NCBI GenBank assembly: GCA_016793585.1
Contig: JAEUJR010000103.1
Location: 1 to 7,541, forward strand
Origin: Archangium sp.
GTDB taxonomy: Bacteria; Myxococcota; Myxococcia; Myxococcales; Myxococcaceae
Direction of reading: 5' to 3'
Length of the DNA: 7,541 bases
Shown: piece by piece, positions 1,651 to 7,541 of the stretch
How the letters are laid out: each line of letters starts with the position of its first letter
Position numbering within the stretch: the first letter of the stretch is position 1
Notes under the pieces: generated by a model
What the model saw: the letters and a program-made list of their open reading frames with translations, nothing else
Database searches by the model: none
What the model was told of the DNA's origin: nothing
Made by a program: the position numbers and the translations under genes

Positions 1651-2985
1651 TCAACGTCGGCGCGTCAGCACGAGCAGGGCCACGGCCAGCAGCACGCCGA
1701 GCTCGGAGCTGGCGCCACAGCCACAGCCGGGCGTCGGCGTCGAGGTGCACCGACCTGCTTCACACAGCTGGCCCGAGAGGCAGATGGCGCAGGCAGCGCC
1801 GTTCGCGCCGCACGCCATGTCAGACGACTGAACGCACACGGCGCCGTTGCAGCACCCCGAGCAGTTCGTCGCGTTGCACGTGACGCTGGGGGAGCCGCCA
1901 GCCGTCGCGGTGCCGCCTCCCGCCGCGCTGCCTCCTGCTGATGCGACGCCGCCGGCCGCTGCCGTGCCGCCTGCCGTCGCCGCTCCGCCTGCCGAGCCTC
2001 CCGCGGTTGCGGAGCCGCCGGCTGTCGCGCTTCCGCCGCCCGATGCCCGACCTCCCGCCGCCGCAGTTCCGCCCGCCGTCGCAGTGCCGCCAGCCGAGGC
2101 CGTCCCTCCGCCTGCTGCGCCGCCGGCTGCAGAGCCGCCATCGGTGCTGCAGCCGAGTGACATCGTCACCTGGTTAATGGCCCCGCTAGAAACATCGGCC
2201 CCGACCATCGATTCAACACAGCCGCTGCCGAGTAAGAACTGGGCAAAGAAGGCGCGTGCATACCGCTTGTAGACAGCCGAGCGCGCCGAACTCCACGTGG
2301 CGGGCGTGAGAATCGACGGCCCGCAGCCCCCGAGACACAGAGCGTTCGACGGCTCCTGCGGGTCGCAGTGATTCGCCATGGGCACGTTGAAGCGCCCCTT
2401 GAGACCGGACTTCTCCGCAAACCACCCGCCGATACCTCCATCAAGAAGCACGCGATCGGTGTTGTTCTGCGTGTTGCACGACTGCGGCGGCGCGAACTCG
2501 AACAGCGTCGGCGCCGTCACGTTGGCGATCTGCGCCGAGCCGAGGCTGCTGCTGTCGACCGGGTCGAGCAGCGCGAGCGCCTTCGTCTGCGGCCGACGAG
2601 ACGCAGCGAGCCACGCGGCGAGCCCACCGGCGCTGTGCCCCCCAAAGCCAACCCTGGTTGCGTCGCCGATTCCGGCGGTGATGGTGGCGTCGACGGCAGC
2701 GACGAGCGCGTCGGCGTTGGCGGAGTGATTGACGCTGAGCCCACCCGTCAGCTGCGGCGCCACCACGACGATGCCATCGGCCTGCAGCGCCTGCGCGAGC
2801 CCACGAACGTTCTCCTTGTTGTTCGAGAAGCCGTGCCCGAGCGCGACGATGGGGAACGGCCCCGTGCCCGCGGGCGTGTAGCGATCGACCTGAAAGCTCG
2901 AGCCATTCACCATCACGGTGAAGGTCGTCTGAGCCTGCGCCACCGAGGCGACGGCGAGGAGGAGCAGCAGGAGTCGGTTGAACAT
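1651..2985 (-). CDS. Secreted alpha/beta-hydrolase (chlorophyllase/PETase-like fold) with MYXO-CTERM tail
   Basis: This 444-residue protein starts with a signal peptide (Leu-rich core 5-13, likely cleavage after AQA, residues 16-18). An alpha/beta-hydrolase domain follows (about 20-278): oxyanion-loop GHGFSNN (50-56), nucleophile elbow GHSAGG with Ser118, ALLDPVD (138-144) giving the probable acid Asp141 or Asp144, and NHCDP with the likely catalytic His206. The DPVD and GHSxGG pattern resembles chlorophyllase/dienelactone-type esterases; the true substrate (ester, lipid or polyester) cannot be read from sequence. A Gly/Ala/Ser/Thr linker (283-366), a module with eleven cysteines (370-413) and a MYXO-CTERM tail follow. 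The function is predicted to be an extracellular or surface-anchored ester hydrolase. The start at 2985 is chosen because it begins the signal peptide and has GAGAGG five bases upstream; the frame extends to 3144, but that part is low-quality sequence. Codons for about residues 239-275 (2161-2271) use more A/T endings than the rest. It is divergent from the T2SS genes. Confidence 0.88.
   Translation of the reverse strand: MFNRLLLLLLAVASVAQAQTTFTVMVNGSSFQVDRYTPAGTGPFPIVALGHGFSNNKENVRGLAQALQADGIVVVAPQLTGGLSVNHSANADALVAAVDATITAGIGDATRVGFGGHSAGGLAAWLAASRRPQTKALALLDPVDSSSLGSAQIANVTAPTLFEFAPPQSCNTQNNTDRVLLDGGIGGWFAEKSGLKGRFNVPMANHCDPQEPSNALCLGGCGPSILTPATWSSARSAVYKRYARAFFAQFLLGSGCVESMVGADVSSGAINQVTMSLGCSTDGGSAAGGAAGGGTASAGGTATAGGTAAAGGRASGGGSATAGGSATAGGSAGGAATAGGTAAAGGVASAGGSAAGGGTATAGGSPSVTCNATNCSGCCNGAVCVQSSDMACGANGAACAICLSGQLCEAGRCTSTPTPGCGCGASSELGVLLAVALLVLTRRR
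1654..1728 (-). other. MYXO-CTERM surface-sorting signal
   Basis: The last 25 residues of the hydrolase (420-444) have the three parts of a MYXO-CTERM signal: a Cys motif GCGCG (420-424), a hydrophobic segment rich in Leu, Val and Ala (429-440) and a terminal Arg-Arg-Arg. In Myxococcus this signal is reported to be processed by an intramembrane protease (myxosortase), with the exposed Cys becoming the lipid anchor and export to the surface depending on the T2SS. The signal is what makes a Myxococcota source likely. Confidence 0.92.
1888..2139 (-). repeat. Low-complexity GG(S/T)A(T/A)A-type linker repeat in the hydrolase
   Basis: About 84 codons encode imperfect tandem units of five to six residues such as GGSATA, GGTAAA and GGTATA, with only Gly, Ala, Ser, Thr and an occasional Arg or Val. 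On the plus strand this reads as GC-rich repeats of the gccgcc/gccgtc type. It joins the catalytic domain to the Cys-rich module and probably serves as a flexible spacer that holds the enzyme away from the cell surface. DNA like this can change copy number by slippage, so length may vary between strains. Confidence 0.85.
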
Positions 2986-2990
2986 GGCCG

Positions 2991-2996
2991 CCTCTC
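2991..2996 (-). promoter_or_regulatory. Ribosome binding site of the hydrolase
   Basis: Read on the minus strand this is GAGAGG, five bases before the ATG at 2985-2983. It is one of the better Shine-Dalgarno matches in the window and decides the start of the hydrolase in favour of the signal-peptide Met over the upstream in-frame ATG at 3144. No convincing -35/-10 pair was found for this gene in the 181-base intergenic region. Confidence 0.7.
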
Positions 2997-3034
2997 TGCC
3001 GACACCCGGTGCCGTTCGCAAGTCGGCGGTCGCG

Positions 3035-3082
3035 GCTCGACATCTCGTCGCAGGTCGCAACGCCACAGCTCGACACATTGTC
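3035..3082. repeat. Direct repeat plus dyad, candidate activator site
   Basis: GCTCGACA occurs twice, at 3035-3042 and 3068-3075, offset by 33 bases (about three helical turns). The second copy runs into a short dyad, GACA-CAT-TGTC (3072-3082). Relative to the transcription start predicted from the sigma-54 element at 3139 (about 3165), the repeats lie near -126 and -93, the usual distance for enhancer-binding proteins that activate sigma-54 promoters. The repeats are short and may be chance in GC-rich DNA, or may serve the divergent hydrolase gene instead. Confidence 0.3.
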
Positions 3083-3138
3083 AGCGCGTGCAACGGCAGC
3101 GCGCGCTCAAGCGCCCGATTCCCCGGCGGGAGCGGTGG

Positions 3139-3154
3139 TGGCACCTGCGTTGCT
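3139..3154 (+). promoter_or_regulatory. Sigma-54 (RpoN) type promoter before first gspC
   Basis: The sequence TGGCACC-TGCG-TTGCT matches the -24/-12 consensus TGGCACG-N4-TTGCW at every defined position except the seventh. The GG and GC cores are 12 bases apart, as required. Taking the C of TTGCT (3153) as -12 puts the start of transcription near 3165, two bases before the ATG at 3167. The same element with all 12 defined bases identical occurs before the second gspC. Sigma-54 promoters need an activator ATPase, and myxobacteria encode many of these. Confidence 0.6.
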
Positions 3155-3166
3155 CACCCCAGCTCC

Positions 3167-3979
3167 ATGCGCCTTCGCACCAGCCTGTTCCTTCACGTGC
3201 TGCCGTGGGCTCTCCTCGCGCTCACGGCGTGGCTCGTGGTGACTCCCGTCGGTGCCCTGCTCGAGGAGCGGCTCGCCGTTTCCGTGGTCGAGCCGGTTCT
3301 GCCCGCGCCGCAGGTCACGCGGGAGCAGGCCACCCTCAGTGAGCAACGCGTCTACGCGCTGCTCGGCCTGCCGCTCCCCCGTGCGCCAGAGTTCGTCTCG
3401 ACGCCGCGAGCCCTGCCGCCCTTTGGCGCGAAGCTGCTCGGCACTCTGTCGTCGTCGTTGAGAGACCGCTCGGTGGCGACGTTGCTGCTCCCCACGGGCC
3501 GCGCCGTCTCGGTGTGGGAGGGCGATCAGGTGCTCGGCGCCGAGATCGTCGAGATCGCCCGCAATTCCATCACCATTCGACGTGCAAACCTGTTGGAAGA
3601 ATTGTCGATACACCGGCCTGCTTCAATTCCTTCCATCGCTTTCGTGACACCAGTCACGGCACAAGACTACGCCGTCTCACGAACCGAGCTCATGACCCGG
3701 CTGGGCGACCTGTACTCGCTCTCGAAGGAGGTGCGCGTGATGCCCGCCTTCCGTGACGGCCAGGCGATCGGCTTCCGGTTCGCGGGCCTCGCCCCCGACT
3801 CGGCGGTCGCGAAGCTGGGGCTGAAGACCGGCGACGTGATCCGCTCCATCAACGGCCAGCCGCTGGACTCGATGCAGCGGGTGCTGGGCCTGGTGGGCGC
3901 CCTCGAGCACACCCCCGAGGTGCTCGTGCAGATCGAGCGCGAGGGCCAGCTCCTCACCCACCGCTACCGCCTCAACTGA
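3167..3979 (+). CDS. gspC: Type II secretion protein GspC, paralogue 1
   Basis: This 270-residue inner-membrane clamp protein of the T2SS is expected to link the inner-membrane assembly to the GspD secretin. A short N-terminus with two Arg is followed by one membrane helix (about 7-28), a periplasmic linker, the homology region that binds GspD (about 85-150, containing AKLLGTL and the turn EGDQVLGAEIVEI), and a C-terminal PDZ domain (about 188-268, with GFRFAGLAPDSAVAKLGLK and GDVIRSING). It aligns with the next gene across both domains but has a shorter linker, so the two are diverged tandem paralogues. The ATG at 3167 is the only start that keeps the whole anchor; it has no Shine-Dalgarno, and the frame upstream (open to 2978) reads as noncoding. 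Codons 138-168 are unusually A/T-ending. The alternative is a GspC-like PDZ accessory protein rather than the core clamp. Confidence 0.85.
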   Translation: MRLRTSLFLHVLPWALLALTAWLVVTPVGALLEERLAVSVVEPVLPAPQVTREQATLSEQRVYALLGLPLPRAPEFVSTPRALPPFGAKLLGTLSSSLRDRSVATLLLPTGRAVSVWEGDQVLGAEIVEIARNSITIRRANLLEELSIHRPASIPSIAFVTPVTAQDYAVSRTELMTRLGDLYSLSKEVRVMPAFRDGQAIGFRFAGLAPDSAVAKLGLKTGDVIRSINGQPLDSMQRVLGLVGALEHTPEVLVQIEREGQLLTHRYRLN

Positions 3980-4006
3980 CCGCCCCTGCTGATCCACCTG
4001 CCGTTC

Positions 4007-4016
4007 CGTCATGACG
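4007..4016. repeat. Perfect 10-base palindrome CGTCATGACG
   Basis: This palindrome lies in the 112-base gap between the two gspC genes. It is centred about 107 bases before the transcription start predicted from the sigma-54 element at 4093, so it could be an operator or enhancer site. It is short and shares no clear sequence with the repeats before the first gspC. A weak hairpin, GGCAG-AGGC-CTGCC (4039-4052), also lies in this gap but has no T-run, so it is not a terminator. Confidence 0.25.
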
Positions 4017-4091
4017 CCCTCCTTCGCTTTGACAAAATGGCAGAGGCCTGCCCGAACTCGGTCAGATTCCTCAGTGATTTCAGGGCACTTG

Positions 4092-5054
4092 ATGGCACCG
4101 GGCTTGCTCTTTGGCCCTCCTGCCGTGGAGTTCCTCTTCAAGCGACATTTCTGGCTGGTCCACCTCGCCTTCATGTTCGGGGTGGCCTTCTTCATCGGGA
4201 AGACGGCGAACGCCTTTCTCGAAGCCCAGCTGCTCCCGCTGCCGACCGGCGAGACGCGGCAGGTGCTCAAACCCCAGGTGATCGAGCCGGTGCCTCAGCT
4301 GGTGCTCGACCGCATCGCCAAGCTCACGGGCCTGCCGGTGCCGAAGCCCGAGCCCGAGGTGAAGGAGCCCGAGGCCCCGAAGGTCGACATGGAGTCGCCG
4401 CCGATTCACTCGTCGCTGCGGCTCAAGCTGCTCGGCACGCTCGTCTCGGGCAACCCCGAGTGGTCAGTGGCGTCGATTCAAGACGTCGTCACGCTCAAGA
4501 CGAACACGTACATGGTTGGCGACACCATTCAGGGCGCCGAGGTGCTCGAGATCGAGCGCAAACGCGTCATCATCAAACACAACAATCGCCGCGAATACAT
4601 CGACGAGAACCCGGGTGACGGGTCGATGGCGCCGCCGCCTCCGCCAGTGCAGACGATCGCCGCCGCGCCGGCCAAGTACAACGACGCGCCGCCGCCGTCG
4701 GTGGGCCTGGGCTCGACCATCAAGCAGATGAGCGAGAACGAGTACGAAGTGCCCCGCGCCGAGATCGACAAGACGCTCTCGAACCTGAACGACGTCGCGA
4801 TGCAGGCGCGCATCGTGCCTGCGTTCAAAGACGGCGTCGCGCAGGGCTTCAAGCTGTTCTCGATTCGCCCCGACTCCATCTATTCGAAGATTGGCGTGCA
4901 GAACGGTGACGTCATCAAACGCATCAACGGCTACGACCTGAACAGCCCTGAGAAGGCGCTCGAGGTCTACTCCAAGCTCAAAGAGGCTTCGCGCATCGAC
5001 ATCGAGGTCGAGCGCAATGGAGCCTCGGTTCGCAAGACCTACAACGTTCGCTGA
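4092..5054 (+). CDS. gspC: Type II secretion protein GspC, paralogue 2
   Basis: This is the second inner-membrane clamp protein of the T2SS, 320 residues from the ATG at 4092. Order: a membrane helix (about 20-38, preceded by FLFKRHF), a long Pro/Glu-rich periplasmic linker (about 50-105), the GspD-binding homology region (about 107-172, with LKLLGTL and VGDTIQGAEVLEIERK), a second Pro-rich linker (about 178-205), and a PDZ domain (238-318, with GFKLFSIRPDSIYSKIGVQ and NGDVIKRING). It sits directly before gspD with a 12-base gap, the usual gspC-gspD order, so it is the more likely core GspC. Start: ATG 4092 has AGGG at 4082-4085, but its first codons are poorly GC-ended and overlap a sigma-54 element. 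GTG 4125 (starting VEFLFKRHFW) is a serious alternative. ATG 4011 has no ribosome site. Confidence 0.93.
   Translation: MAPGLLFGPPAVEFLFKRHFWLVHLAFMFGVAFFIGKTANAFLEAQLLPLPTGETRQVLKPQVIEPVPQLVLDRIAKLTGLPVPKPEPEVKEPEAPKVDMESPPIHSSLRLKLLGTLVSGNPEWSVASIQDVVTLKTNTYMVGDTIQGAEVLEIERKRVIIKHNNRREYIDENPGDGSMAPPPPPVQTIAAAPAKYNDAPPPSVGLGSTIKQMSENEYEVPRAEIDKTLSNLNDVAMQARIVPAFKDGVAQGFKLFSIRPDSIYSKIGVQNGDVIKRINGYDLNSPEKALEVYSKLKEASRIDIEVERNGASVRKTYNVR
4093..4108 (+). promoter_or_regulatory. Sigma-54 (RpoN) type promoter before second gspC
   Basis: TGGCACC-GGGC-TTGCT again matches the -24/-12 consensus at all defined bases but one, with correct GG-to-GC spacing. With C at 4107 as -12, transcription would begin near 4119. 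The element overlaps the ATG at 4092, so if it works, protein from this transcript must begin downstream, most simply at the in-frame GTG at 4125, leaving a six-base leader. It would drive gspC, gspD and gspE independently of the first gspC. Confidence 0.55.
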
Positions 5055-5066
5055 AACGACTTGAAC

Positions 5067-7481
5067 ATGAACACCCGCCTGTCCATCGGTCTCCTCTGCG
5101 CGCTCGTGCCGGCGTTCGCGCTCGCCCAGCAGCCCCCTGCGCCCAAAGCCGGAGCGCCCGCCGCCGCTGCAGCTGCTGCTCCCGGTGCCACCATCGCGCC
5201 CAAGAAGCCGAGCTGCGAGGAGTCGCGCCGCAAGGGCCGCTACAACATCTATTTCGACAAGGTCGAGATCGAGAAGCTGGTTCAGACCGTCTCTGACGTC
5301 ACCTGCAAGACCTTCATCCTGCCCGAGAACATTCGCGGCAAGATCAGCATCATCGGCCCCGAGAACGGCAAGGTCGAGGTCGACGCCGACCAGTTCTACG
5401 CGGCGTTCCTCGCGGCCCTCGATGCGAACAGTCTGTCTGTCTATTCGAACGGCAAGTTCATGAAGATCGTGGACAAGCAGCGGGCGAAGCAGTTCCCCAT
5501 TCAGACCATCTTCGACCCGACAGAGCAGTACACGATGAACGAGCAGATGGTCACTCGCATGTTCAAGATCAAGAACGTCGAGATCGAGCAGCTGCGCGGC
5601 GTGTTGCAGCAGTTGGTCACGCCGTCGGGCGACACCATTCCTTTCCAGCCCGACACCATCATCATCAACGACCTCGCGTCGAACATGCACCGCCTCGAGA
5701 AGCTGGTGGAGCAGCTCGACTCGCGCTCGGCGTCTGACGAGATGCGCGTCATTCAGGTGCAGTACGCGACGGCGCAGGAGATGGCCGACAAGATCACCAA
5801 GCTCTTCGAGGCGAAGGTGAACCGCCCTGGTCAGCGGCCTGGTGGGTTCATTCCGCCGCCTCCGCCGGGCGCCACGGCCGGCACACCTGCACCCGAGACC
5901 GGCCCCGCCACGCTCACCCAGCTCATTCCCGACGAGCGAACCAACAAGCTCATCATCATCGCCAGCCCCGGCGCGATGGCGCGCGTCACCGCGCTCATTC
6001 GGGAGATCGACATTCCCATCTCGGGCGAGGGCCGCATCAACGTGCTCTACCTCGAGAACGCGAACGCCGAAGACGTGGCCTCGACGCTGCAGACGCTGGC
6101 GCAGGGCACCGCGAACCGCCCCAAGACGCCCACGCCGCCTCCGCCCGGTGGCCGCCCCACCACCGCTGCCGAGCTGTTCTCGGGTGAGGTGAAGGTCTCG
6201 GCCGACAAGTCGACCAACGCCCTCGTCATCATTGCCAGCCAGAACGACTACCGCTCGCTGCTGCGGGTCATCGAGAAGCTCGACATTCAGCGCCGGCAGG
6301 TCTTCGTCGAAGCGGTCATCATGGAGGTCAACCTCGATCGCAACTCAGACCTCGGCATCAACTTTCACGGCGGCGTGCCCCTGCCCTCGCAGGACGTGAG
6401 CCCGATCTTCTTCGGCACCAAGTACTCGAGCCAGGGTCTGCCGCCCAGCCTCAGCCTTGCCAACCTGATCTCGTTGTCGGGCTTCCTCGGCGGCATTCAG
6501 AGCTCGCAGACCATCAACATCGCCGGCCTGACGATTCCCAACTTCGGCCTCGTCATCAACGCGCTGCAGAAGTCGAGCGACGTGAACGTGCTGTCGACGC
6601 CGCACATTCTCACCACCGACAACGAAGAGGCCGAGATCACGGTCGGCCAGAACGTGCCGTTCCAGTCGGGTTTCTCGGCGGGCGGGCTCGGCGGGCTCGG
6701 TGGCCTCGCGGGTCTAAGCGGCCTCGGTGGTGCGACTGGGCAGCTTGGTGGCCTCGGTGCGCTCGGTGGTCTCGGCGGCCTCGGCGGTGGCGTGTTCGGG
6801 CAGATTCAACGCCAGAACGTCGATCTGAAGCTCTCGATCAAGCCGCAGATCAACGAGTCCGACTACGTGCGCCTCGTCATCAACGAGCAGATCGAAGAGA
6901 TCGCCTCGTCAGACCCGGTGCTCGGCCCGACCACGTCGAAGCGCAGCGCGAAGACGACCGTCATCGCGAAAGATCAGGAGACCATCGTCATCGGCGGCAT
7001 CATGCAGGACCGCCTGGTGGAGTCGGTCTCGAAGACGCCGCTGCTCGGCGACATTCCACTGCTGGGCAACCTGTTCCGCCAGCAGTCGCGCCGCAAGGTG
7101 AAGACCAACCTGCTGCTCTTCCTCACGCCGTACATCATTCGTGACGCGGGCGACTTCCGCCGCATCTTCGAGCGGAAGATCAAGGAGCGTCAGCAGTTCG
7201 TCGAGCAGTTCTACGGCGCCAGCACCACCTATGACGTCGCCATCGACTTCAACCGCAAGCCCGGCCCGCTCGCGCGCATGACGCAATTGCTGAACAAGGA
7301 ATTGAACCGCATCGAGAACGGCGGCCCCGGCCTGCCTGGCGAGAAGGTCATCGCGCCCGCGCCCGAGTCGAAAGACCCGAAGCCTGCCACGCCGGTCGTC
7401 GAGCCGGCTGGTGCGACGCCGCCCGTGCCCGTGAAGGAGCCGAGCCCCGAGCAGCTGAAGGTGCAGCCGGAGATTCAGTGA
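5067..7481 (+). CDS. gspD: Type II secretion system secretin GspD
   Basis: This 804-residue outer-membrane channel of the T2SS forms a multimeric gated pore for folded exoproteins. A signal peptide (1-20, cut after ALA) leads to an Ala/Pro-rich stretch, the N0 domain (about 58-140, YNIYFDKVEIEKLVQTVSD onward), N1 (163-222), N2 (225-320) and N3 (324-405). N2 and N3 each carry a Pro-rich loop (252-281 and 350-366). The secretin core (about 405-692) contains VFVEAVIMEVN, TVGQNVPF (525-532), LSIKPQINE, TIVIGGIMQD, LLGDIPLLGNLF (659-670) and LLLFLTPYII. A Gly/Leu-rich insertion occupies 536-578. The tail includes a charged helix (about 695-715, possible S-domain/pilotin region) and a Pro-rich end (753-804). 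No Cys follows the signal peptide, so it is not itself a lipoprotein. The start is ATG 5067, which begins a standard signal peptide; TTG 5061 is in frame but less likely. There is no strong ribosome site, suggesting coupling to gspC. Confidence 0.97.
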   Translation: MNTRLSIGLLCALVPAFALAQQPPAPKAGAPAAAAAAAPGATIAPKKPSCEESRRKGRYNIYFDKVEIEKLVQTVSDVTCKTFILPENIRGKISIIGPENGKVEVDADQFYAAFLAALDANSLSVYSNGKFMKIVDKQRAKQFPIQTIFDPTEQYTMNEQMVTRMFKIKNVEIEQLRGVLQQLVTPSGDTIPFQPDTIIINDLASNMHRLEKLVEQLDSRSASDEMRVIQVQYATAQEMADKITKLFEAKVNRPGQRPGGFIPPPPPGATAGTPAPETGPATLTQLIPDERTNKLIIIASPGAMARVTALIREIDIPISGEGRINVLYLENANAEDVASTLQTLAQGTANRPKTPTPPPPGGRPTTAAELFSGEVKVSADKSTNALVIIASQNDYRSLLRVIEKLDIQRRQVFVEAVIMEVNLDRNSDLGINFHGGVPLPSQDVSPIFFGTKYSSQGLPPSLSLANLISLSGFLGGIQSSQTINIAGLTIPNFGLVINALQKSSDVNVLSTPHILTTDNEEAEITVGQNVPFQSGFSAGGLGGLGGLAGLSGLGGATGQLGGLGALGGLGGLGGGVFGQIQRQNVDLKLSIKPQINESDYVRLVINEQIEEIASSDPVLGPTTSKRSAKTTVIAKDQETIVIGGIMQDRLVESVSKTPLLGDIPLLGNLFRQQSRRKVKTNLLLFLTPYIIRDAGDFRRIFERKIKERQQFVEQFYGASTTYDVAIDFNRKPGPLARMTQLLNKELNRIENGGPGLPGEKVIAPAPESKDPKPATPVVEPAGATPPVPVKEPSPEQLKVQPEIQ
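6669..6800 (+). repeat. Gly/Leu-rich repeat insertion in the secretin
   Basis: About 44 codons encode imperfect GLGGLGG-type units with few other residues, from tandem ggcctcggtggt-like DNA. The insertion falls directly after the conserved VPF motif and before the strand leading to LSIKPQINE, inside the otherwise well-conserved secretin core. In enterobacterial GspD this connection is short and polar, so here it is expanded and may line or cap the pore. Repetitive DNA of this kind is prone to length change. Confidence 0.85.
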
Positions 7482-7483
7482 CC

Positions 7484-7541
7484 ATGAGCGAGTCGATGGA
7501 GACCAACGAAGAGATCCGCACCGAGCGCACCCAGATGGTGT
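7484..7541 (+). CDS. gspE: Probable T2SS ATPase GspE, N-terminus only (partial)
   Basis: An ATG two bases after the gspD stop opens a frame of 19 codons to the window edge, starting MSESMETNEEIRTERTQMV. GGAG at 7469-7472, inside the end of gspD, is 11 bases upstream. The visible part is acidic and probably disordered and has no diagnostic motif. The call rests on the standard gspC-gspD-gspE order. A different gsp gene or an accessory protein cannot be excluded until Walker A and the GspE zinc-binding tetracysteine motif are seen downstream. Confidence 0.65.
   Translation, partial: MSESMETNEEIRTERTQMV

Follow-up and report, generated by a model that had tools for sequence, protein, structure and literature searches.

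In myxobacteria the type II secretion system (T2SS) puts MYXO-CTERM proteins on the cell surface (PMC11980579), and how this machine is switched on is described only in fragments in the literature that we searched. A 2025 survey reported that sigma-54 promoters are statistically enriched for T2SS clusters of orthologous groups (COGs) in Myxococcia (PMC12316311). Nla28, an enhancer-binding protein (EBP) of Myxococcus xanthus, shows binding and Nla28-dependent expression at MXAN2511, in a segment of the T2SS operon (PMC9765219), and NmpR of the same species is an NtrC-family EBP with paired enhancers GCGCA-N5-TGCGC (PMC11841059). We followed up an original prediction made on a stretch of 7,541 nt from Archangium sp. 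(contig JAEUJR010000103.1, forward strand; hereafter the window), namely that two sigma-54 elements, TGGCACC-N4-TTGCT, stand before two gspC paralogues and that both genes share one sigma-54/EBP switch. Its further statement that sigma-54 control of the T2SS is not known to be established in this lineage stands only in part: the computational survey of 2025 and the Nla28 study of 2022 had already touched on the subject (PMC12316311; PMC9765219). In the parts consulted, neither describes the promoter of gspC, its palindromes or the neighbouring EBP gene reported below. Our comparison, made on sequences throughout, indicates that both elements are very probably real sigma-54 promoters of one T2SS regulon under an NtrC-type EBP encoded upstream.

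The elements, the transcription starts predicted from them and the genes that they precede lie as follows.

3139-3154, + strand: sigma-54 -24/-12 element of gspC1, TGGCACC-N4-TTGCT with N4 = TGCG
3165, + strand: predicted start of gspC1 transcription, 12 nt past the C of the GC, giving a leader of about 2 nt
3167-3979, + strand: gspC1, accessory GspC paralogue, 270 aa, with PDZ; GspC_delta 123 bits
4093-4108, + strand: sigma-54 -24/-12 element of gspC2, TGGCACC-N4-TTGCT with N4 = GGGC
4119, + strand: predicted start of gspC2 transcription; with GTG 4125 as the start codon, the leader would be about 6 nt long
4125-5054, + strand: gspC2, canonical GspC, 309 aa from GTG 4125, with T2SSC; GspC_delta 308 bits

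Both starts follow the rule that sigma-54 transcription begins 12 nt past the GC. The two copies of the element were found where predicted, each agreeing with 11 of the 12 positions of the consensus TGGCACG-N4-TTGC(T/A) (PMC9765219, Table 1 footnote), and their spacers and flanks differ, as had been noted. They also lie just before the gene starts, 12 bases from ATG 3167 and 16 from GTG 4125. The plus strand was said to hold no other TGGCAC-N5-TTGC, and this proved correct, these two being the only exact matches on either strand of the window. Shuffled sequences contained 0.04 exact matches on average, and two were reached in 0 of 200 shuffles. At up to two mismatches the window has four matches, fewer than the shuffles (8.4), so the signal lies in the perfect matches.

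Conservation of the element in related gsp loci had been named as a test beforehand. Loci of relatives were taken from a gspD search (the best 80 of 150 relatives) and, with the window, give 81 sequences, or 1.22 Mb (2.45 Mb counting both strands). Their records are named Myxococcus, Corallococcus, Archangium, Hyalangium, Anaeromyxobacter and unclassified Deltaproteobacteria, with GspD identity down to about 42%. Because many of these loci are close kin, locus counts do not equal independent events, and the genomes used below are phylogenetically related in the same way. A gspC2 is recognisable in 76 of the 80 loci; its upstream region is present in 76 sequences (75 loci and the window; L018 was excluded since a contig end cuts the region). 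The element is kept at up to one mismatch in 68 of these 76, from Myxococcus to Anaeromyxobacter: 67 gspC2 promoters are tabulated in the interval from -160 to +20 around the match start, and L059 lies outside that interval. Exact TGGCAC-N5-TTGC occurs 62 times in the 81 sequences, always just upstream of gspC (5 at gspC1, 57 at gspC2) and never elsewhere on either strand, and other spacers (0-4, 6-11) gave at most five matches each.

The 67 gspC2 promoters and the five exact gspC1 promoters form a set of 72, which has ten mismatches in total, C6>T (8) and T1>C (2), so that GG, CA and TTGC are invariant, in part by construction, since the set was selected for at most one mismatch. The base following TTGC is T in 68 of the 72, and the N5 sequence varies. 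The distance from the element to the gspC start uses all three reading frames (24, 22 and 16 of 62, with five unassigned), so a conserved peptide is not the explanation. At gspC1, recognised in six of the 80 loci (L001-L005, L038) and in the window, GG-N10-GC is present in all seven promoters (five exact, one with one mismatch and one with two), and in each of them an ATG follows 28-30 bases from where the element begins. In all 15 related genomes searched we found rpoN (PF04552), the gene for sigma-54 itself.

Reading of the tabulated upstream regions brought out a 13-bp palindrome, TGAC-N5-GTCA, which most often occurs as two copies ahead of the -24 element. In the window the predicted sites are these.

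3038-3050, + strand: distal palindrome of gspC1, CGACATCTCGTCG, degenerate, 33 bp from the proximal one; fits YGNC-N5-GNCR
3071-3083, + strand: proximal palindrome of gspC1, CGACACATTGTCA, 68 bp upstream of the -24 element
3999-4011, + strand: distal palindrome of gspC2, TGCCGTTCCGTCA, 31 bp from the proximal one; 8/8 match
4030-4042, + strand: proximal palindrome of gspC2, TGACAAAATGGCA, 63 bp upstream of the -24 element; 8/8 match

Under the strict consensus TG[AC]C-N5-G[GT]CA (8/8, from -220 to 0), 59 of the 72 promoters have at least one site and 10 have two; at 7/8 the numbers are 72 and 61. Strict sites occur at 4.39 per kb upstream of the promoters and at 0.051 per kb elsewhere in the loci; in shuffled upstream regions a mean of 1.09 promoters, at most 5, had one. 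Since this consensus had been picked by eye, a scan of all 4-bp dyads with gaps of 0-12 was made. It ranked GACA-N3-TGTC first (49/72) and TGAC-N5-GTCA second (45/72), which are one and the same palindrome, and ACAA-N1-TTGT, an overlapping frame of it, reached 31/72; the best unrelated dyad reached 14/72. The spacing of paired sites is mostly 31, 33 or 40-41 bp, near whole helical turns. In all seven gspC1 promoters the proximal site lies at -66 to -68 and its distal partner at -98 to -107. The relaxed form, YGNC-N5-GNCR, matches further places in the gspC1 upstream regions, and for this reason the fixed positions are the stronger evidence there. The paired layout, as judged from these predicted sites, suggests an activator's enhancer.

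The likely activator gene sits outside the window, upstream of gspC in relatives. Of the 66 loci with a tabulated gspC2 promoter, 36 have an EBP gene on the same strand whose tblastn match ends 96-239 bp before the -24 element. In four gspC1-bearing relatives with long contigs (G001-G004) the gene shares contig and strand with gspC1 and lies 7-10 kb ahead of it, and in the nearest relative the gap contains other genes, including the acyl-CoA dehydrogenase that is also in the window. By its domains, namely a receiver (REC), a Sigma54_activat AAA+ domain, an AAA lid and a Fis-type helix-turn-helix, seen in the orthologue of the nearest relative and in the M. xanthus protein, the candidate is an NtrC-type response regulator. 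The GAFTGA loop is present in 10 of 10 genome orthologues and in 35 of the 43 locus copies in which the loop is covered. Its recognition region reads LLGIAARTIYRKL in 33 of 44 copies, with RTIYRK in 44 of 44, and MLGIAARTIYRKL in the orthologues from gspC1-bearing genomes. Each of 10 genomes, six of them with gspC1, has one clear orthologue (M. xanthus itself and nine at 75-78% identity to it), and the next match is at most 50% identical among the matches listed. From the adjacency, the specificity and the conserved recognition region we infer that this EBP binds the paired palindromes.

In M. xanthus GspD is MXAN2514 (PMC3222651); from this and the gene order the EBP would be about MXAN_2516, a tag that we did not find in the open-licence literature. 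The M. xanthus protein scores below the curated equivalog cutoffs of AtoC (462 against 714 bits), ZraR (438 against 760), NtrC (425 against 559) and LuxO (358 against 800). Inspection by eye of the large open reading frames (ORFs) in the 5 kb before the EBP gene of M. xanthus (L031), where no domain search was made, showed no kinase gene. One record (L029), titled Comamonas sp. KCTC 72670, has an EBP 97% identical to that of M. xanthus, and its label looks wrong.

Composite patterns extend this picture from loci to genomes. In a first search of 15 genomes for TGAC-N5-GNC, a gap and TGGCAC-N5-TTGC, all nine rows with the shorter gap (eight promoters) and seven of the ten rows with the longer gap stood at gspC or gspD. 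A second search covered 145 genomes drawn from the class and used TGAC-N5-GTC, a gap of 85-115 or 40-70, and TGGCAY-N5-TTGC. The longer gap gave 91 matches in 78 of the 145 genomes, 89 of them followed within 1.5 kb, on the same strand, by a stretch homologous to gspC; 68 of these stretches are at least 55% identical to gspC and presumably represent mostly the gspC of the main operon, and two of the 91 (L206, L255) have no such homology downstream. With the shorter gap there were 27 matches in 23 of the 145 genomes, 17 preceding gspC and three gspD. The reversed-pattern control returned none with the longer gap and one with the shorter gap.

Some of these matches lead to gspC-like genes that are mostly outside the main operon (L135:6851-8392, with two in a row, and L186-L196), some of them short, at 163-216 aa. 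When five extra gspC proteins were scanned, T2SSC matched two of them and the PDZ model alone the other three (two of these below cutoff). GspD-like secretin genes likewise stand behind an enhancer-like site and TGGCAY-N5-TTGC (L136:7205-9244, L138/L198, L139/L199), and for L136 no other T2SS genes were evident by eye among the ORFs of 15 kb. We also considered whether gspC1 is kin of the extra gspC genes of other genomes, and found no special similarity to the 11 compared; as gspC1 is not particularly close to them, the extra genes were treated as separate gains. Extra GspC copies under such promoters thus seem, on the basis of this comparison, to have arisen more than once. We lean towards a dedicated T2SS EBP in Myxococcota, with a regulon that would be almost only T2SS, consisting of the main operon and repeatedly gained gspC or gspD genes.

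How might the two promoters of the window work together? The predicted shared switch gains support from the paired palindromes upstream of both promoters, found in all seven sequences with gspC1 (six loci and the window). Given the promoter, palindrome and EBP evidence and the 89 of 91 composite matches at gspC, a single sigma-54 signal most likely serves both gspC1 and gspC2. We propose that the EBP would be phosphorylated by some kinase and would then bind both TGAC-N5-GTCA palindromes of each promoter, some 60-100 bp ahead of the -24 element; once bound, it would oligomerise and remodel and open the complex of RNA polymerase and sigma-54 at both promoters. A near-leaderless gspC1 transcript would start at the first promoter, and gspC2-gspD with the following genes, without gspC1, at the second. 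With gspC2-gspD transcribed apart from gspC1 in this way, both gspC genes would respond to one signal and yet be started separately. In the clade of the window the transcripts would be translated almost without a leader (about 2 and 6 nt); in M. xanthus, GTG and ATG codons are found about 20 nt downstream of the predicted start.

Several observations weigh against this interpretation. By our criterion eight of the 76 sequences lack the element (L015, L045, L048, L049, L066, L067, L068, L079), although in L045 a match with one mismatch, 187 bp upstream, was left uncounted. The gspC1 palindromes of the window are weaker, at 7/8 (proximal) and 6/8 (distal) on the strict consensus. No EBP lies within 300 bp in 30 of the 66 loci: four of these have one 0.7-5.6 kb away, nine have at most 2.1 kb of upstream sequence, and the other 17, of which four (L001-L004) have it just beyond the flank, show no EBP orthologue in their available flank (more than 2.1 kb). 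Eight of the 43 EBP copies read GAYTGA (L017, L019, L020, L025, L041, L042, L046, L069). The link between EBP and palindrome is guilt by association, and for the genome of the window itself we infer both rpoN and the EBP from their presence in relatives. Three of the ten longer-gap rows in the 15 genomes have no T2SS link (L121, L127, L129), and seven of the 27 shorter-gap matches in the 145 genomes precede neither gspC nor gspD (L141, L142, L147, L149, L150, L155, L158). Finally, the strict composite pattern is missing from many of the 145 genomes; those with TGCC/GGCA variant sites escape it, among them five of the six with gspC1.

Another point of this kind is that in M. xanthus Nla28 binds and affects a T2SS promoter, that of MXAN2511 (PMC9765219). 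This belongs to a different explanation, in which the promoters are real but a different EBP, Nla28 for example, or more than one EBP acts on them. Also in its favour, each of 10 genomes has at least 22-48 matches to the EBP at E ≤ 1e-60, with up to 150 candidates scored per genome. We regard this explanation as unlikely, since the conserved palindrome differs from the Nla28 site and 36 of 66 loci have a gene for a different EBP beside gspC. The Nla28 half-site CTSCGSAG, at up to one mismatch, is absent from 3000-3140 and 3980-4093, and Nla28 as direct activator of both window promoters was set aside for want of close half-sites, with the proviso that its published targets include weaker ones.

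It is more doubtful still that only the gspC2 promoter works and that the gspC1 copy is a decaying relic, or gspC1 otherwise controlled. Such decay would fit the faster divergence of gspC1 (82% identity between the window and its nearest relative, L001, versus 99% for gspC2), the two mismatches in the gspC1 element of L005 and the one in that of L038, and the weaker palindromes; against it, GG-N10-GC, both palindrome positions and the position of the ATG are kept in seven of seven gspC1 promoters. The proximal palindrome often contains TTGACA, which could be read as the -35 element of a sigma-70 promoter, the TGGCAC/TTGC element then being something else. We consider this very improbable: the TTGACA belongs to a dyad of 13 bp that mostly comes in pairs, and a consensus scan of 2900-5200 gave no candidate sigma-70-like promoter, on which ground sigma-70 control was rejected. 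Chance, coding constraint or plain upstream duplication is hardly credible, for although 4092-4124 is constant in length and open in the seven gspC1 sequences, so that part of the conservation could be coding, chance and coding were rejected on the shuffles, the three-frame distances and the placement of 62 of 62 exact matches at gspC, and the spacers and the flanks of the window copies differ.

The remaining features of the window are listed below.

74-1267, + strand: acyl-CoA dehydrogenase
within 1274-1750, - strand: small ORF, no Pfam match
1651-2985, - strand: hydrolase, weak alpha/beta-hydrolase matches
5067-7481, + strand: gspD secretin, with Secretin, Secretin_N and GspD N0
7484-7541, + strand: start of the next gene, probably gspE judging from the sequence alone, clipped by the window end

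Of the two paralogues, gspC2 passes the GspC_delta cutoff (308 versus 150 bits) and gspC1 fails it (123 versus 150 bits); gspC1 is a diverged paralogue with PDZ and 29% identity to gspC2. A second gspC-like stretch, not recognised as gspC1, was seen beside gspC at L016:283-492 and L064:1823-2200. For gspC2 the tentatively preferred start is GTG 4125, from which the GspC_delta profile match begins six residues in; 20 of 77 alignments start exactly at this codon and 22 of 77 at the in-frame upstream ATG 4092. This ATG overlaps the gspC2 sigma-54 element. As 4092-4124 is constant in length in all seven sequences with gspC1, a longer GspC could be made from read-through transcripts.

The hydrolase gene at 1651-2985, divergent to gspC1, ends in ...GCGCGASSELGVLLAVALLVLTRRR, which by eye resembles a MYXO-CTERM sorting tag and would make the protein a predicted T2SS client. 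No NCBIfam tag model was listed for this tail at E ≤ 1e-3. In L132 and L133 a gene on the - strand at the corresponding place has a similar tail.

The analysis offers a concrete promoter, an enhancer and a candidate regulator, kept in most relatives examined and testable in M. xanthus, together with a signature by which additional gspC and gspD genes beyond the main locus can be found. If the proposed scheme is true, one regulator turns on the main secretion machine and its spare parts, and GspC subunits added on one signal would retune that machine. Loss of sigma-54 is lethal in M. xanthus (PMC12316311), and an essential T2SS under sigma-54 was considered as the cause. This idea is weakened by a strain that carries an insertion in MXAN2510, a gene of the T2SS segment, yet grows and was assayed (PMC9765219).

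In the open-licence literature we found no description of this enhancer, this EBP or a gspC-paralogue regulon. An enhancer of the LuxO type is a 13-bp palindrome with a short AT-rich centre, as here. The half-site differs, however, and the candidate EBP falls far under the LuxO equivalog cutoff (358/800 bits). The likeness to NmpR lies in a response-regulator EBP with two palindromic sites upstream of a sigma-54 element; unlike there, the sites here follow TGAC-N5-GTCA, most often at a spacing of 31, 33 or 40-41 bp, and the targets are T2SS genes (PMC11841059). The Myxococcia survey likewise predicts sigma-54 promoters for T2SS genes, but as a COG-level statistic that, in the part consulted, comes without promoter anatomy, enhancer, activator or gspC paralogues (PMC12316311). 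The Nla28 study likewise reports sigma-54/EBP control of M. xanthus T2SS genes, with binding and expression data; MXAN2514 and MXAN2515 are absent from its main text, and its MXAN2511 promoter differs, reading GGGCGCG-N4-TTGCA with other binding sites (PMC9765219). Against this background, sigma-54 control of the T2SS is partly anticipated, and what appears new, as far as the literature searched goes, is the paired palindromes, the candidate EBP and the gspC-paralogue regulon predicted from them.

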